DNA of 7,690 nt from an uncultured Erysipelotrichaceae bacterium (GTDB taxonomy: Bacteria; Bacillota_I; Bacilli_A; Erysipelotrichales; Erysipelotrichaceae). Shown one piece after another: positions 1,712 through 7,690 of the stretch (positions are counted from its first letter, which is position 1; each line of letters opens with the position of its first letter). The notes under the pieces were generated by a model, which worked only from the letters and a program-made list of their open reading frames with translations, made no database searches and was not told the origin of the DNA. The DNA lies in assembly GCA_905201565.1 (NCBI GenBank), contig CAJKOS010000083.1:1-7690 (forward strand), written 5' to 3'. A program made the translations under genes and the position numbers.

Positions 1712-2323
1712 ATGCAGAATCTCATTTGTAGTGTATGTGGCAAGCGTCCAAACGGAATCACAAATATCGCTAATCCTGTTGGCGTACATACAATTCTATG
1801 TTCCGATTGTCTTGCCAAACTGAAGCCATTCAGAATAGCACAGCAATACACTTCAGAAGAAGCAATCGTCAAAGATGAAAAAGATACCATTCAAAAAGCC
1901 GAACAAAACAACTTCCCAAAAATCGTTATCGACGACCTGAGAGCACATTTCAACGAGAAGCGAAAAGAATTCGCAAAACAGACAGGCAAAGATGTACAAG
2001 GCATCATTCTGTTGACGACAACCAATACCATTGAAGGAAAACCGATCAAAAAGTACTGTGGTATTGTATCTGGTCATACAGTTCTTGGTACAGGATTCAT
2101 CAGTGACTTTGCGGCAGGTTTTGCAGACTTTGCCGGTACAGAATCTACCACATACCGTGACAAGCTTGCATATGCAGAAAATGTAGCAATCCACAGAATG
2201 ATGCAGAATGCTTCAGCACTGAATGGAAATGCGATTGTGGGTATACGAATCGAACATGAAAACTTTGGTTCCATGATTGGTATTACAGCAACCGGAACAA
2301 GTGTTGTCATCGATGAAGAATAG
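1712..2323 (+). CDS. YbjQ/UPF0145-family protein with N-terminal zinc-finger-like module
   Basis: This is a 203-residue protein. Residues 97-203 are a YbjQ (UPF0145, DUF74, Pfam 'putative heavy-metal-binding') domain: ILLTTTNTIEGKPIKKYCGIVSG, then an acidic/aromatic stretch, YAENVAIHRMMQNASALNGNAIVGIRIE and a final GITATGTSVVI strand. These domains form multimeric beta-rich rings in solved structures; their physiological role is not established. The N-terminal part adds CSVC (C6, C9) and CSDC (C30, C33), a four-cysteine zinc-finger-like arrangement, followed by a charged, probably helical linker (about 45-95). Typical YbjQ proteins are near 105 residues, so this one is about twice as long. 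It lies 36 bases after the lipoprotein gene on the same strand and is the last gene of that unit. No membrane segment or signal peptide is seen, so it is probably cytoplasmic. Confidence 0.87.
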   Translation: MQNLICSVCGKRPNGITNIANPVGVHTILCSDCLAKLKPFRIAQQYTSEEAIVKDEKDTIQKAEQNNFPKIVIDDLRAHFNEKRKEFAKQTGKDVQGIILLTTTNTIEGKPIKKYCGIVSGHTVLGTGFISDFAAGFADFAGTESTTYRDKLAYAENVAIHRMMQNASALNGNAIVGIRIEHENFGSMIGITATGTSVVIDEE

Positions 2324-2327
2324 AATT

Positions 2328-2353
2328 ACATGCAGTTAAAGCTGCATGTTTTT
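2328..2353 (+). terminator. Rho-independent terminator of the acetyltransferase-lipoprotein-ybjQ unit
   Basis: A perfect 8-bp stem, ACATGCAG at 2328-2335 and CTGCATGT at 2342-2349, encloses a six-base loop and runs into a T-tract at 2349-2353. It begins four bases after the TAG stop, so it should end the + strand transcript efficiently. Confidence 0.8.
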
Positions 2354-2397: not shown

Positions 2398-2425
2398 ACT
2401 TCGCATAATGTATGTTATGCGATTT
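2398..2425. other. dif: Candidate dif site (Xer recombination site)
   Basis: The 28-base element has the 11-6-11 layout of a dif site: arm ACTTCGCATAA (2398-2408), centre TGTATG (2409-2414), arm TTATGCGATTT (2415-2425). The known B. subtilis dif, recalled as ACTTCCTAGAA, TATATA, TTATGTAAACT, and E. coli dif, recalled as GGTGCGCATAA, TGTATA, TTATGTTAAAT, share much of it. The CGCATAATGTAT block matches E. coli exactly, the ACTTC start matches B. subtilis, and the TTATG opening of the second arm matches both. I count 20 of 28 identities to E. coli dif. The inner arm bases form an 8-bp inverted repeat (2401-2408 with 2415-2422), as dif arms do. Orientation is uncertain because the reverse complement also resembles dif. 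The alternative is a second + strand terminator, since TTTTT follows at 2423-2427. However, a stronger terminator already lies 50 bases upstream, and the Xer recombinase gene begins its stop only 37 bases away. Confidence 0.5.
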
Positions 2426-2436
2426 TTATATATAAC

Positions 2437-2457
2437 AAAAGTCCTCCTGAGAGGACT
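2437..2457 (-). terminator. Rho-independent terminator of the dxs-recN-dinB-xerD operon
   Basis: Read on the - strand, a 7-bp stem AGTCCTC/GAGGACT (2457-2451 with 2446-2440) with a four-base loop is followed by three further T residues after the stem T (2440-2437), then G and a TTATATATA stretch. It starts four bases past the xerD stop codon. The stem is GC-richer than the other hairpins in this gap. Confidence 0.75.
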
Positions 2458-2461
2458 GATG

Positions 2462-3400
2462 CTATTTCTTCTTCTTTTCTATTTTGTTGACCACAATATT
2501 TCCAATCTCATCATCTGTTTCACCAGGATGAAACTTCTCATACGCAGTAAACATCTGCTGGTTCTGCACATGGGTATAGATCTCCGTTGTCTGTATGTCG
2601 GAGTGACCTAACATTTCCTGAATACTTCTGAGATCTGCACCACCCTGCAACATATGTGTGGCATAGGAATGTCTCAATTTATGTGGAGTGATGTGTTTCT
2701 TGAAATTGAGTTCATTGCATTTCCTCTGCAGAAGCAGTTCCACTGATTTCTGCGTAACTCTTCTACCAAAACGGTTGATGAAGAAGAGATTTGTATTCTG
2801 TTTGAGGAAGATGGATCTTGCTTTTGATATGTAGTCCTTTAACAGAGGTATTGTACCAGAAGGTATTGGTACGATTCTTTCCTTGTTTCCTTTGCCAAGT
2901 ACTCTGAGCTTGCCTGAAAGGATGTCTACTCTGTTTATTTCAAGGTTTACGGCTTCTGATACCCGTAAGCCACAGGAATAGATGAGTTCGAGTATTGTAT
3001 GCTGAAGCAGTTGTTCCGGGTCATGGTCATCAAAGGAAGACATGAGTCTTGTGATTTCTTCCTTTGTGCAGAATACCGGCAACCTGTGTTCTGCCTGTCT
3101 GACCTGTAGGTTGAGACTTGGATCACTTTCATCATACATGAAGGCGAGAAACTGGTGGAAAGAACGGATTGCGCCTGCCATACGGGAAAGAGAAGCAGAT
3201 GATTTGGATTTGCTTTGTTGATGCATAAAATCATCGATATAGGCATAAATGATGTCTTCCGTATCTTCTATACCATTCTTTGCAAGAAAGCCCGTATACT
3301 GCCTTAAATCGCTGCTATAAGCCTCAATTGTATTCTCACTTTTGCCATCGTTGATGTTTTGCTGTACAAGGTACTGCTTCAATGCTTTATCGAGTTTCAT
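2462..3400 (-). CDS. xerD: XerD-type tyrosine site-specific recombinase
   Basis: This 312-residue protein is a complete Xer tyrosine recombinase, the type that resolves chromosome dimers at dif during division, with FtsK activation. An N-terminal SAM-like core-binding domain (about 5-95) precedes the catalytic domain (about 107-290). All catalytic residues are in place: R146 in CGLRVSEA, K170 in VLGKGNKER, H240 and R243 in TPHKLRHSYATHML, H266 in LGHSDIQTTE, and the nucleophile Y275 in EIYTHV. Xer proteins are near 300 residues; this one has a short lysine-rich C-terminal tail (IEKKKK). The start overlaps the dinB stop as ATGA, with AAGGA at 3411-3407 six bases upstream. It is the last gene of the operon and is followed by a terminator and a dif-like site. 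XerD is the best label, but XerC or a lone Xer cannot be excluded without the rest of the genome; an integrase is unlikely in this housekeeping setting. Confidence 0.88.
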   Translation of the reverse strand: MKLDKALKQYLVQQNINDGKSENTIEAYSSDLRQYTGFLAKNGIEDTEDIIYAYIDDFMHQQSKSKSSASLSRMAGAIRSFHQFLAFMYDESDPSLNLQVRQAEHRLPVFCTKEEITRLMSSFDDHDPEQLLQHTILELIYSCGLRVSEAVNLEINRVDILSGKLRVLGKGNKERIVPIPSGTIPLLKDYISKARSIFLKQNTNLFFINRFGRRVTQKSVELLLQRKCNELNFKKHITPHKLRHSYATHMLQGGADLRSIQEMLGHSDIQTTEIYTHVQNQQMFTAYEKFHPGETDDEIGNIVVNKIEKKKK

Positions 3401-4569
3401 GACTTTTCCTTGAGAAGGTCACTCGCCCTTCTGAATACCTTTCCAGATAGCTGACGGTTGAGGTCCTGCAGGACAAAGGCAGTTTCCCGTTTGTCTTCTT
3501 CAGGATTGTTGAAGAGGTTGAGCTGGGTGACAAGTTCATCGCCATTCTTCAAACCGGAAAGAGAAATACCTGCCAGTCTGACCGGTTCACCATCCCAGTT
3601 ATCATCGAACAGTTCCATTGCCTTATCAAGGATGTCCTCCCCTCTCCATATAGGATGATCCAGACGAATGCTGCGATCGACATTGCGGAAATCAAAATAC
3701 TTGATTCGAATAGACAATGTTGTGCCAAGCTTCCGATCTTTCTTCATGCGCTGTGACAGTTTTCTTGAAAGCGTTCTGTATAAACCTCTTAATTCCTCAT
3801 AATCCGTCACATCTTCCAGCAGTGTTTCAGAAACACCCATGGACTTTGCATCCCATTCTTTGACAATTTCCCGCTCATCATAGCCATGTGCTCTTTTCAT
3901 CATGAATTCGGTATTCTTGCCAAAAATCTTTTCGAGCTTTGCCATATCCTTGTATCTTGCAAGATCCCCAATCGTTCTGATCCCTAATGCCAGCAATAAC
4001 GGCTCTGTCTTTTTGCCAACACCACGCATATCACCAATTGGCAATGGCCACATCTTGTCTTCGACATCACGAATACGAAGTACCGTGATACCCATCGGCT
4101 TTTTCATATCACTTGCCATCTTGGCAAGAAACATATTCGGTCCTACACCTATCGAACATGGTAATCCAATCTCGGTGAGTATCTCTTTCTGTATCCTTAC
4201 CGCAAGATCAAGCGGTCTTGCCATCTTCATGATTGTCTCCGTAACATCCGCGTAGCATTCATCAATGCTTGCCTGTTCGATTTCTGATGTGTACCGCTTT
4301 ACGATGTTCATAAACTGTTCAGACAGTTCCCGGTAGTACTGGTAGTGACCACCGACAATGACAAGGTCAGGACAGAGTTTGATGGCTTCCTGGATGGGTT
4401 GTGCGCTATGAACACCAAAAGCACGTGCTTCATAGGAAGCCGTGCTGACAACACTTCTTCTTGTTGTGCCGGAAACCGCTACCGGTTTGCCTTTCAGTGA
4501 TGGATCAAGAAGGATTTCTGCATTGACAAAGAAGGCATTCATGTCGATATGAAAGTACACCCTTGCCAT
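3397..4569 (-). CDS. dinB: DNA polymerase IV (Y-family translesion polymerase)
   Basis: This 390-residue protein is an error-prone Y-family polymerase that copies past damaged bases and lacks proofreading. The palm carries the metal-binding aspartate D9 in HIDMNAFF, with F14 five residues later as the likely steric gate against ribonucleotides, and the SIDECYADVT motif (101-110) with D103 and E104. The nucleotide-contact segment YYRELS is at 78-83. A helix-hairpin-helix-like thumb region (IGDMRGVGKKTEPLLLALGIRTIGDLA, about 178-204) and the little-finger domain (about 245-340) follow. QLNLF (349-353) is an excellent beta-clamp-binding motif, followed by about 37 more residues. All key residues are present. 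The ATG shares its A with the recN stop (TGATG), and GAAAGGA lies about ten bases upstream. No LexA-type GAAC-N4-GTTC box was seen nearby, so any SOS control would have to act at the operon promoter outside the window. Confidence 0.95.
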   Translation of the reverse strand: MARVYFHIDMNAFFVNAEILLDPSLKGKPVAVSGTTRRSVVSTASYEARAFGVHSAQPIQEAIKLCPDLVIVGGHYQYYRELSEQFMNIVKRYTSEIEQASIDECYADVTETIMKMARPLDLAVRIQKEILTEIGLPCSIGVGPNMFLAKMASDMKKPMGITVLRIRDVEDKMWPLPIGDMRGVGKKTEPLLLALGIRTIGDLARYKDMAKLEKIFGKNTEFMMKRAHGYDEREIVKEWDAKSMGVSETLLEDVTDYEELRGLYRTLSRKLSQRMKKDRKLGTTLSIRIKYFDFRNVDRSIRLDHPIWRGEDILDKAMELFDDNWDGEPVRLAGISLSGLKNGDELVTQLNLFNNPEEDKRETAFVLQDLNRQLSGKVFRRASDLLKEKS

Positions 4570-6212
4570 CAGCTTCTGTTCCTTTCAAACAGTTCTCGTG
4601 CAGCCTGTATAGAAGCTTCTGTTACCTCCCCCGAAGAAATGAGGGCAAGCTGACGGATTCTTTCCTCTTCATCCAGTTGTGTAACAGTCGTTCTTGTATC
4701 ATTATCATCACTGGATTTGGATACCAGGTACTGCATCTCTGCACAACTTGCGACAGGTGCAAGATGGGTGACGGCAAATACCTGACATGACTTTGACAAA
4801 GCGCGCATTTCCTTGCCGATAGAAGTCGCTACCGGACCGCTGACACCGGTATCAATTTCATCAAAGATGACGGTTTCAATACCCTGTAATCTAGTAAAGA
4901 TTACCTTGAGACCAAGCATGAGTCTTGAAAGTTCACCACCAGAAGCGGTCTTTGACAGCGGTTTGAGGTCTTCGCCTTTATTCATGGAAATCAGAAATTC
5001 CACCCTGTCACTGCCATACACAGATGGTCTGCCTTCTGTTATAGAAGTCTTGAATCGTGCATTTGGCAGCATCAGTTCCCTGAGATGGACCATGACTTCT
5101 TCATCGAGGTTATGGCATCCCATCATGCGCACTTCATGGAGTTTTGCTGCAAAGGTGTCATATTCCTGCTTTGCCCTTGCAATTTGCTTATCAATCTTTG
5201 CAAGATATTCCTGCTTATGGGCAAACATATCAACCTGCTGCTGCAGTTCATCCTTTTTGGCAAGGATGTCTTCTATGGTATGTCCATACTTGCGCTTGAG
5301 TTTCTGGATGGTATAGAGCCTTTCTTCCATGGCATTGATTTCTTCTTCTGAAAGATCCATGGTATCCCGCAATGCGCCTAAAGACTCCAGGGCATCGACC
5401 ATATTGTAGTAGGCATCAGAGAAGGCAGACTGCACCTTTTCAATCTCATCATCCGCCTTCAAAGACTCGATGGTCCTCAACATGTTATACAAACCACCTG
5501 ATACCTCTTCATCATAGGTTGTGAAGATGACATTGAGCTTGTCATAAGAGTCACGGACTGCCTTGTACTGTTTCTCTTTTGCCTCAAGTTCTTCATCTTC
5601 ACCAGGTGTTAATGAAGCTTCTTCTATCTCTTTGATCTGGTAAGAGAAATAGCTGAGGTCATTTTCGTTATATGTACTGTTTAAAGCTTCTTCTTTTTCC
5701 TTTTCCAGCCTGCGCAGTGCACCATATTTATCTTCTGTTTCTTTCAGCAGTTCTTCATCCTGCAGGTATCGGTCAAGAAGATGGATGTGCAGGGAATCTT
5801 TGAGCAGATAGGCATTGTCGCGCTGACCATGGATGTCAATTTCATCCTGCAGAGCATCACGCAATAGTGACAATGTCACAACCCGGTGGTCAATGCGGGC
5901 AACACTTTTGTTAGAGGCATGCAGTTCACGTGTAAATGTCGTTTCCTCTTCTGTTTCAAAACCTGCTTCTTCCAATACACGTGCCGCATGGGAATTCTTA
6001 TCGAAGGTGAATGTGCCTTCAATAATGGCTTTGTCTTTCCCTTTCATGATAAAAGAGGCGCTGGCACGCTCTGCACAAAGCAGAGAAATCGCATCGATCA
6101 GGATGGATTTGCCGGCACCTGTTTCACCAGTAAAGGCGCTGAATCCTTCTTCAAAGTCGAGGTTCAGCTCATCAATCAACACAAAGTTTTTAATATACAG
6201 ATGTCTGATCAT
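4569..6212 (-). CDS. recN: DNA repair protein RecN
   Basis: This 547-residue protein is an SMC-like ATPase that gathers DNA ends and assists RecA in double-strand break repair. Its length is close to E. coli RecN (about 553). The N-terminal head starts MIRHLYIKNFVLIDELNLDF and has the Walker A motif GETGAGKS (29-36). The middle (about 150-360) is glutamate- and lysine-rich helical coiled coil, shorter than in true SMC proteins, as is usual for RecN. The C-terminal head holds the ABC signature SGGELSR (424-430), Walker B VIFDEID (448-454) and the switch-histidine region VTHLAPVAS (481-489). The start ATG lies in an ATGA overlap with the dxs stop and has no clear SD just upstream, so translation probably depends on ribosomes finishing dxs. 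In many Firmicutes recN follows dxs, a TlyA-type gene and argR; here the last two are absent between them. Confidence 0.97.
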   Translation of the reverse strand: MIRHLYIKNFVLIDELNLDFEEGFSAFTGETGAGKSILIDAISLLCAERASASFIMKGKDKAIIEGTFTFDKNSHAARVLEEAGFETEEETTFTRELHASNKSVARIDHRVVTLSLLRDALQDEIDIHGQRDNAYLLKDSLHIHLLDRYLQDEELLKETEDKYGALRRLEKEKEEALNSTYNENDLSYFSYQIKEIEEASLTPGEDEELEAKEKQYKAVRDSYDKLNVIFTTYDEEVSGGLYNMLRTIESLKADDEIEKVQSAFSDAYYNMVDALESLGALRDTMDLSEEEINAMEERLYTIQKLKRKYGHTIEDILAKKDELQQQVDMFAHKQEYLAKIDKQIARAKQEYDTFAAKLHEVRMMGCHNLDEEVMVHLRELMLPNARFKTSITEGRPSVYGSDRVEFLISMNKGEDLKPLSKTASGGELSRLMLGLKVIFTRLQGIETVIFDEIDTGVSGPVATSIGKEMRALSKSCQVFAVTHLAPVASCAEMQYLVSKSSDDNDTRTTVTQLDEEERIRQLALISSGEVTEASIQAARELFERNRS

Positions 6213-7690
6213 ATAATCTTGTTCAACTCATCGATGATGGAATTGAGGTCAATATGCATCTCTTTGCGAAGGCGGGTTTCAGCCCCCTGCTGCACATAGT
6301 GATCACCAATACCCATCCGGCGCATGTTCATGGCAAGTCCATTATCGCACAACCAGCCAAGAATTGCTTCCGAAAGTCCGCCACTCAGCATATCCGATTC
6401 ATAGACGAGCACCGGCATATTGCTATTTGCAATTTCCCTTAACATGTCTTCATCCATCGGCTTGAAAAACCGGCAGTTGACCACCGTGACCGGAATCTCA
6501 TTGCCTTTGAGCTTTTCATAAATCGTATTGACTGCAGGTCCATATGTCAAGAGATACGCCTTATCATGGTCTGTCACAGACAATTTCTCCCATGAACCAA
6601 TCACAAGTTCATGCATATTCTCTTCTGTTGGTTTTCTGACCACACCCTTTGGATAGCGGATCGCAAATGGATGCTTCTGATGGAAGGCAGTATAAAGAAG
6701 ATCCCTTGCCTCATCTGCACTTGCAGGCTGGGCAAGGATGAGGTTAGGAAGAGGTCTTAACAAACCAATATCAAAGATACCATGGTGGGTTTCACCATCA
6801 TCCCCGACTAGTCCTGCATGGTCAATACCGATGACTACCGGCAAATCCATACGGCATACATCATGGTTGATCTGGTCATATGCCCTCTGTAAGAAAGAAC
6901 TGTAGACCGGAAGATATGGACGCTTGCCAGAAATGGCAAGACCTGCCGCAAATGTCATGCTGTGCTCTTCCGTAATACCACAATCAAAGGAACGATCCGG
7001 ATGCCTTGCAAAGAAGTTCTGCAGTCCGCTTCCCTGGATCATGGCTGGTGTCAGGGCGATGATATCTTTGTTTTCATCCGCAAAATCAGAAACGGTATTT
7101 GAGAAAAGATCTGCCCATTTGACATAGCCATCCGGTACACCATGCAATGGCTTTCCCGTTTCAATATTGAATGGTCCTACACCATGCCATCTGCCTTCAC
7201 GGTCATTTTCACAATAGCGGTAACCCTTTCCCTTACGGGTGATGACATGTACCACAACCGGTCCATCATGTTTTTCTGCTACCCGCAATACCTGGATGAG
7301 GTCCGCAAGATTATGACCATCTACCGGTCCCATGTATTCCAGGTTGAACTCACCAAAAATACCAGCATCGAGAATCGTTTCCTTGATACCCTGTTTGAAT
7401 GACATCAATCCGGAATAAATAGAACGTCCCAAATCATTGTGACTGAGGTTTTCCTTCAATCCTTCCTTGAATCTGTTATATCCATTGGATGCCCGAAGGT
7501 TGGCAAAACTCTTTGCCATAGCACCTACATTTTTGGAAATGGACATGTTGTTATCATTGAACACAATGACCATCTTCCGCTTCTCTTCACCAATATCATT
7601 CAATGCTTCAAGTGCCATACCACTGCCAAGGGCACCATCCCCAATGACCGGCACAACCGCATAGTTTTCATGGTTGAGGTCACGGGCAAC
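6209..7690 (-). CDS. dxs: 1-deoxy-D-xylulose-5-phosphate synthase (5' end cut by window)
   Basis: Dxs joins pyruvate and glyceraldehyde 3-phosphate with thiamine diphosphate to start the MEP isoprenoid pathway; it is cytoplasmic and dimeric. The frame stays open to base 7690, giving 493 residues here. Aligning GDGAL to E. coli G151-D152-G153 implies about 134 N-terminal residues lie beyond the edge. Seen here, counted from the edge residue: the ThDP/Mg motif GDG (17-19) to NDN (45-47); a histidine equivalent to E. coli H299 at 169; the catalytic glutamate in ITEEH at 241 (E370); FLQRAYDQ (266-273); DGETHHG with 302 equivalent to H431; and the C-terminal domain with VYESDMLSGG. Two differences stand out: DHAGLVG in place of DRAGLVG (position 291, E. 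coli R420) and RYPKG in place of RYPRG (position 348, E. coli R478). It is the first visible gene of the recN operon; the promoter is outside the window. Confidence 0.95.
   Translation of the reverse strand, partial: VARDLNHENYAVVPVIGDGALGSGMALEALNDIGEEKRKMVIVFNDNNMSISKNVGAMAKSFANLRASNGYNRFKEGLKENLSHNDLGRSIYSGLMSFKQGIKETILDAGIFGEFNLEYMGPVDGHNLADLIQVLRVAEKHDGPVVVHVITRKGKGYRYCENDREGRWHGVGPFNIETGKPLHGVPDGYVKWADLFSNTVSDFADENKDIIALTPAMIQGSGLQNFFARHPDRSFDCGITEEHSMTFAAGLAISGKRPYLPVYSSFLQRAYDQINHDVCRMDLPVVIGIDHAGLVGDDGETHHGIFDIGLLRPLPNLILAQPASADEARDLLYTAFHQKHPFAIRYPKGVVRKPTEENMHELVIGSWEKLSVTDHDKAYLLTYGPAVNTIYEKLKGNEIPVTVVNCRFFKPMDEDMLREIANSNMPVLVYESDMLSGGLSEAILGWLCDNGLAMNMRRMGIGDHYVQQGAETRLRKEMHIDLNSIIDELNKII

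Follow-up and report, generated by a model that had tools for sequence, protein, structure and literature searches.

Among the described systems closest to the locus reported here is the dif/XerCD/FtsK system of E. coli, which parts joined copies of the chromosome ahead of cell division and in which XerC and XerD occupy one half-site each, two sites synapse, and FtsK-gamma-activated XerD acts first and XerC last, according to the accessible portion of PMC5052618. Differences between the two half-sites tell XerC from XerD in E. coli dif. The portion of PMC2731167 available names positions 23 and 24 among the main determinants of XerD specificity in E. coli, predicts that position 24 contacts Q221 directly, and notes that positions 23-24 are variable in Proteobacteria; a partial text search found this paper alone on XerD Q221. 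In the same excerpt Carnoy and Roten describe the two genes of classical dif systems as scattered, and according to an extract of Kono et al. (PMC3025954), across bacteria xerC lies for the most part close to dif, and xerD close to the origin. The XerS/difSL and XerH/difH systems depend on a single recombinase, and a recombinase gene near its site is a possible hallmark of such systems in the available part of a review (PMC5357621).

The locus described here lies in the window, that is, the whole stretch of 7,690 nucleotides that was analysed. A partial text search found no literature on dif sites in Erysipelotrichaceae. The element at 2398-2425 is very likely a real dif with a variant XerD half-site that is co-adapted with its XerD, and we put at roughly 0.93 the probability that it is the chromosome dimer-resolution site and that the right half-site changes together with residues 220-221 of the adjoining XerD. 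Binding and recombination of the 28-mer by XerC and XerD are predicted by analogy with E. coli.

A predicted dif site between convergent gene blocks

Positions 2398-2425 of the window read ACTTCGCATAA TGTATG TTATGCGATTT, which is the layout of a dif site (28 bp, two inverted 11-bp half-sites flanking 6 bp), with an 8-bp inner inverted repeat, TCGCATAA/TTATGCGA. The exact 11-6-11 arrangement and inner repeat claimed in the original prediction are thereby borne out by the letters of the window, and so is its count of 20 of 28 identities to E. coli dif when that site is taken from NC_000913.3 (GGTGCGCATAATGTATATTATGTTAAAT, at about 1,590,777), with the CGCATAATGTAT block unbroken. The features that the argument draws on are as follows.

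1712..2323, plus strand: YbjQ-domain gene, left neighbour converging on dif
2328..2349, plus strand: terminator-like hairpin of the left gene block, flanking dif
2398..2425, plus strand: dif, predicted XerC/XerD recombination site (11-6-11), from sequence, family recurrence, the skew switch in relatives and the conservation pattern
2398..2408, plus strand: left (XerC) half-site ACTTCGCATAA, assigned to XerC by the orientation of E. coli dif
2401..2422, plus strand: hairpin of the dif arms, then T's; possible secondary terminator
2409..2414, plus strand: central hexamer TGTATG, from sequence
2415..2425, plus strand: right (XerD) half-site TTATGCGATTT, altered from the class-typical TTATGTWA
2420..2421, plus strand: dif positions 23-24 (CG), putative XerD specificity bases covarying with XerD residues 220-221
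2440..2457, minus strand: terminator-like hairpin of xerD
2462..3400, minus strand: xerD, tyrosine recombinase of 312 aa with 6 of 6 catalytic residues, transcribed toward dif
2747..2752, minus strand: codons of XerD Gln217-Lys218 (equivalent to E. coli XerD R220-Q221), predicted readers of dif positions 23-24
3397..7690, minus strand: dinB, recN and partial dxs, right-hand block converging on dif

Genes point toward the element from both sides, as had been claimed: the four on the left (HU, a GNAT acetyltransferase, a short predicted lipoprotein with a sub-threshold likeness to DUF3221, and the YbjQ-domain gene) are all on the plus strand, and the four on the right (the tyrosine recombinase, dinB, recN and dxs, the last cut by the window end) are all on the minus strand. 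The gap between dif and xerD is 36 bp. The protein of 301 aa encoded at 465-1370 is GNAT over its first ~138 residues, and its C-terminal half has no Pfam match at the threshold used.

Relatives were reached through a protein search of genome contigs with the window recombinase, which led to two Erysipelotrichaceae MAGs; the closer, G001, shares 82.8% DNA identity with the window across 7.7 kb. Family and class hereafter mean those of G001 in the genome collection, the family comprising 272 genomes and the class being, we assume, Bacilli. At up to 3 mismatches the 28-mer is found at 99 places in 96 of the 272 family genomes and a reversed-pattern control in 0 of 272; a broader pattern matches 215 of the 272 (its control 4), and 57 of the 272 have no match even to this broader pattern. 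The 96 genomes were by construction picked for closeness to the window's 28-mer, and counts of site composition take one site per genome, 96 of the 99 places. In G001 the 28-mer keeps 26 of its 28 bases, with one broken stem pair and three T's left of the five-T run. Positions 3 to 12, spanning most of the left half-site, are identical in 95 or 96 of the 96 family sites, and the central hexamer is TGTATG in 71 and TGTATA in 16. At the same tolerance 93 of the 96 genomes contain one copy and three (G036, G054, G069) contain two, which is the single-copy behaviour expected of dif.

Several of the additional sites have surroundings worth recording. The second site of G054 is a near-duplicate of the same flanks. 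G069 has two identical dif-like sites with different flanks (L165:1614-1641 and L166:262-289), one adjoining xerD and the other flanked by genes for a DHH-family protein of 318 aa and a protein of 431 aa with no Pfam match; the second site of G036 (L167:9482-9509) lies beside a DeoR regulator, and a weaker match in G044 (L169:4106-4133) shares its contig with an integrase gene located elsewhere on it. The idea that the second sites are mobile elements was considered and dropped: the near-identical flanks in G054 are those of strain duplicates, and no clear element was seen in G069, G036 or G044. Extra dif-like palindromes in G036, G044, G031 (L170) and G039 (L171) have other centres (TGTAGA, TGCTTA) or other outer bases (ACCTCG...CGAGGT) and are possibly mobile-element sites or terminators. 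Three contigs (L173, L174 and L175, of G044, G072 and G112) end 2 or 3 bases beyond dif, as if the sequence there were variable in the sampled population.

Two relatives have a chromosome-long contig, G016 (2,615,268 bp, dnaA at base 137) and G025 (1,545,033 bp, dnaA at 362). The identical 28-mer occupies 1,420,525-1,420,552 in G016, where the cumulative GC skew over the contiguous 190 kb around the site reaches its maximum at 1,420,500, and a one-mismatch site occupies 696,859-696,886 in G025, with the maximum at 697,225 over 130 kb; site midpoint and skew switch are thus 38 bp and 353 bp apart. In both relatives examined the 28-mer lies at the skew switch opposite the origin and is the sole match within 3 mismatches. 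The claim that the element marks the terminus accordingly stands for these two genomes and draws no support from the window itself, whose cumulative skew, over a stretch of 7.7 kb that is too short, peaks at 457 without a maximum at the site. Genome-wide skew, sampled as 20 stretches of 20 kb, includes irregular stretches far from the site in G016. A KOPS-like octamer, GNGAAGGG, has leading/lagging counts of 20/7 in G016 and 26/2 in G025, which are too few, and too confounded by the coding strand, to serve as evidence. As a terminus marker, dif would be a simple one for a poorly studied family.

Covariation of the right half-site with XerD

In place of the class-typical right arm TTATGTWA the window has TTATGCGA. 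Across the 96 family sites positions 22-25 read GCGA in 60, ACGA in 10, GTAA in 8, GTTA in 6, GCAA in 4 and otherwise in 8, and the change from TTATGTWA to TTATGCGA at positions 23-24 is, as far as these sequences indicate, a lineage-wide switch. The original prediction had hesitated over the departure of the second arm, which could signify a variant site or a look-alike; the family comparison resolves this in favour of the first. Because positions 23-24 are already known to vary in Proteobacteria, the arm of the window marks a variant and does not exclude dif.

The bases at these positions were compared with the XerD residues predicted to read them in 123 sequences, namely that of the window, 102 from the family and 20 from the class (20 of the 45 class-level genomes with sites); five of the 107 family genomes with sites (G005, G010, G058, G074, G085) are absent from this set. 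T at position 23 goes with Arg220 in 46 of 46 sequences (26 of 26 in the family), and C goes with Arg in 10 of 77. At position 24 the family sequences with G have Lys, Arg or Glu at residue 221 in every case (72 of 72; Arg or Lys in 45, Glu in 27, with Glu or Gln at residue 224), and those with A or T have Gln221 in 30 of 31, the exception being G171 (site CCAA, residue Ala), so that the rule holds in 102 of 103. Among the 20 class-level genomes, A or T at position 24 accompanies Gln in 14 of 19 (Val with T four times, Glu with A once), and the single G accompanies Tyr. By mutual information with base 24, residue 221 comes out on top of the columns compared (0.924, the next 0.746), and it also ranks first within the 77 sequences with C at position 23 (0.347, the next 0.202). 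When columns fully separated by arm type are counted, with G171 left out of both arm groups, there are five in XerD and five in XerC; the count alone therefore does not single out XerD, and the larger mutual-information set does.

The contrast is visible between the window and its closest relative, whose XerDs differ at 19 of 311 residues, three of these being 217, 220 and 221. The window pairs G at position 24 and the arm TTATGCGA with Lys218, and G001 pairs A and the arm TTATGCAA with Gln at the equivalent residue. All four GCAA sites, that of G001 among them, have Gln221, and we infer that they are reversions, on a tree that has no direction.

Shared ancestry could produce such an association with no direct contact between base and residue, and it is true that most of the split lies in one clade. 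When the reading helix is left out of the tree, four or more changes of base 24 fall on starred branches. Four independent pairs can be drawn, in which residue 221 moved along with the base or stayed and never went against it, and of which three or four agree and none is opposite when loss of Gln221 is scored with base 24 (mean 3.4 of 4 concordant over 200 random pairings), and two or three of the four agree when gain of Lys, Arg or Glu is scored (mean 3.0 of 4). The corresponding sign tests do not reach significance (p 0.125-0.25 and 0.25-0.5, respectively), which leaves room for ancestry as the sole cause, and base 23 with residue 220 provides one independent pair only. Standing against ancestry alone are the repeated changes of base 24, the first rank of residue 221 among the columns compared, and the contact between Q221 and position 24 predicted for E. 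coli in the excerpt of PMC2731167; we regard it as an unlikely account of the whole pattern. A functional pairing of arm and recombinase remains the preferred reading. Three loci that branch early and with weak support within the clade (L123 of G206, L179 of G094, L180 of G011) combine a CGA arm with a TGTATA or TGTTTA centre, and the arm may have changed before position 17 went from A to G.

The altered arm also makes the two half-sites more alike. The half-sites of the window agree at 9 of 11 positions, those of E. coli at 6 and those of a TTATGTAA family site at 7, and the median is 9 for the 73 sites with G at position 24 and 7 for the 50 with A or T. The position equivalent to 221 is Arg in all 35 unlinked XerCs examined. 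By analogy with E. coli, XerC would bind the left half-site and XerD the right, one each; FtsK would bring dif to the septum, where two sites would synapse, and FtsK-gamma would activate XerD for the first strand exchange, leaving XerC to resolve the junction. In the lineage of the window an XerD helix with Arg-Gln, which reads T-A/T, would have given way to one with mostly X-Lys/Arg/Glu, which reads C-G, and this shift of helix and arm would have brought the half-sites to 9 of 11 identity. A further possibility, which we advance tentatively and would not favour over its negation, is that the XerD half-site has turned into a copy of its XerC counterpart and the XerD helix shifted toward that of XerC, such that both recombinases read the core TCGCATAA. 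If true, it would fall to the outer bases, the central hexamer or FtsK, and not to the specificity bases, to determine which recombinase binds on which side and which exchanges strands first, and the system would be a natural halfway house between two-recombinase and single-recombinase types.

The known variation at positions 23-24 in Proteobacteria (PMC2731167, in part) is here joined by at least three or four joint changes of base 24 and residue 221 within a single tree. Such covariation of right arm and XerD would constitute a natural record of enzyme and target changing together, and the natural protein-DNA pairs are ready material on how a tyrosine recombinase reads its target.

The two recombinases and the position of xerD

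The dif reading anticipates two catalytically complete Xer recombinases and an FtsK-gamma domain, and relatives have both; the window itself contains xerD alone. Xer genes of XerC/D grade number two in 22 of 22 genomes of one set (with a third in G012) and two in 15 of 15 of another, and the full catalytic set (R-K-H-R-H-Y) is found in all 36 linked and all 35 unlinked sequences examined. FtsK-gamma occurs in 12 of 12 genomes tested. G016 has two FtsK-gamma genes (G016:C1:1831056 and 2138261). At the threshold used 16 of the 272 family genomes have no Xer match.

The Xer gene adjoining the window dif is, to judge by its sequence relationships, an XerD orthologue. In a tree of the Xers of 35 genomes (a fragment from G147 was omitted) the dif-linked sequences form one group and the unlinked another; E. 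coli XerC and XerD pair with one another there and fall with the unlinked sequences, a placement that carries a long-branch warning. A second tree separates 22 linked sequences (of 103) together with 20 class-level XerDs, all above the NCBIfam XerD equivalog cut-off, from 19 unlinked ones on a starred branch of 100, and when E. coli XerD is added it groups with the class-level XerDs (99, starred), with E. coli XerC nearest the unlinked group. None of 102 family entries matches the XerC set better than the XerD set. Orthology to accepted XerDs is thus what the trees indicate, at a score of 277.9 bits for the window protein that falls below the equivalog cut-off of 329.6; this cut-off is exceeded by matches in 2 of 272 family genomes and 38 of 45 class-level genomes.

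Scores against the two NCBIfam models follow the arm. The five unlinked proteins scanned all score better as XerC, the three linked ones from TTATGTAA genomes score better as XerD by 18-32 bits, the two linked ones from TTATGCGA genomes score equally within 1 bit, and the window recombinase favours XerD by 8.5 bits. Set against the E. coli proteins, 19 of 19 linked sequences from TTATGTWA-type genomes score closer to XerD, and of the 16 from TTATGCGA-type genomes 13 score closer to XerC. Judged by these scores, the linked XerD appears to have lost its XerD look where the arm changed. In one genome (L121, G038) the xerD frame runs for 720 codons from stop to stop, ~400 past the usual end, by fusion or assembly error.

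Family-wide, 109 sites were located in 107 genomes, and 86 of them share a contig with a Xer gene, the other 23 being on different contigs; of the Xers from the 22-genome set, those of at least 236 bits entered this count. The Xer is no more than 65 kb away at any of the 86 same-contig sites, within 20 kb at 83 and within 5 kb at 61, with a median distance of 1.8 kb; every one of these genes is transcribed toward its site, and 81 of the sites are oriented alike. In the class, 33 of 45 sites have a Xer gene on their contig, transcribed toward dif in all 33 and lying within 20 kb in 24, the farthest at 236 kb. Since linkage is seen at both levels, it probably predates the family.

This proximity bears on whether the locus belongs instead to the single-recombinase XerS/XerH type, in which one Xer would act on a near-symmetric site beside its own gene. 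The gene does adjoin the site, which is the possible hallmark named in the available part of PMC5357621, the arms are near-symmetric, and 7 of 72 genomes in a further set have a single Xer at threshold, a count that may reflect incomplete assembly. A single-recombinase system was rejected all the same, and we judge it highly improbable: a second Xer is present in 22 of 22 and 15 of 15 genomes, falling in the first of these sets in the unlinked (XerC) group, whose members are catalytically complete in 35 of 35; the centre is of 6 bp; and the linked Xer is of predicted XerD type. The supposed hallmark of single-recombinase systems, a recombinase gene near the site, is common among the two-recombinase genomes sampled.

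Other readings of the palindrome and comparison with known systems

The 28-mer could instead be an intrinsic terminator of the left gene block whose likeness to dif is accidental. Like such terminators it has a stem, here of nine pairs formed by the arms, and a T-rich tail, and a loose terminator rule fits 20 of 30 sites in relatives (30 loci examined of the 99 places). The pattern of change is nonetheless that of a site kept base by base. Over 42 distinct sites 31 stem cells are changed relative to the window: pairing is lost in 24 of them and survives as G-U in 7, and none is compensatory. The left inner half accounts for 2 of these changes and the right for 29, and the arm bases are conserved as sequence. 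Compensatory stem change with retention of the T-tract, the mark of an intrinsic terminator, was not found at these sites. The left gene has its own terminator-like hairpin at 2328-2349, and an accidental terminator also sits poorly with one match per genome in 93 of 96 and with the position at the skew switch in two genomes. The reading is largely refuted already, and we give it scarcely any credence; the 20 of 30 sites that satisfy the loose rule make a secondary terminator role possible for the dif hairpin. Two outcomes had been named in advance as telling against the original prediction, a better match elsewhere at the skew switch and a gap keeping only a hairpin and T-tract with freely varying arm bases. 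Neither occurred in the relatives, where the left half-site is near-invariant and 0 of 31 changes are compensated, and the reading of the dif-like element as dif is supported.

Least credible of all is a dif-like attachment site of a mobile element with its own adjoining integrase, which would suit a tyrosine recombinase gene 36 bp away and a second site in three genomes but conflicts with a recombinase that is a predicted xerD orthologue in a block with dinB, recN and dxs, with linkage spanning family and class, with the skew switch at the site in two genomes, and with the near-duplicate flanks of the second site in G054 (those of G069 and G036 being unexplained).

Read as dif, the locus is closest to the E. 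coli system, with which the window shares the 28-bp 11-6-11 layout and the CGCATAATGTAT block, and its relatives share two Xers, FtsK-gamma and location at the terminus. The differences lie in the right half-site, its reader and its setting: positions 23-24 are TT in E. coli and CG in the window, the half-sites are identical at 6 of 11 positions there and 9 of 11 here, and the R220-Q221 of E. coli XerD is missing from the window XerD. In E. coli dif lies near 1.59 Mb, xerC near 4.00 Mb and xerD near 3.04 Mb, whereas the window xerD is 36 bp off. Class-level dif sites of the ACTTCCTATAATATATATTATGTWAACT type, found by a pattern containing TTATGTWA with 3 mismatches allowed, have the same layout and a Xer gene directed toward dif in each same-contig case (33 of 33), and of the 20 class-level genomes whose XerD was compared, all have R220, 14 have Q221 and 19 have A or T as base 24. 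With XerS/difSL and XerH/difH the locus has in common a recombinase gene beside the site and near-symmetric arms; those systems use a single recombinase where the relatives here have two, and difSL has an 11-bp centre in a 31-bp site where the window has a 6-bp centre (PMC5357621, in the part available).
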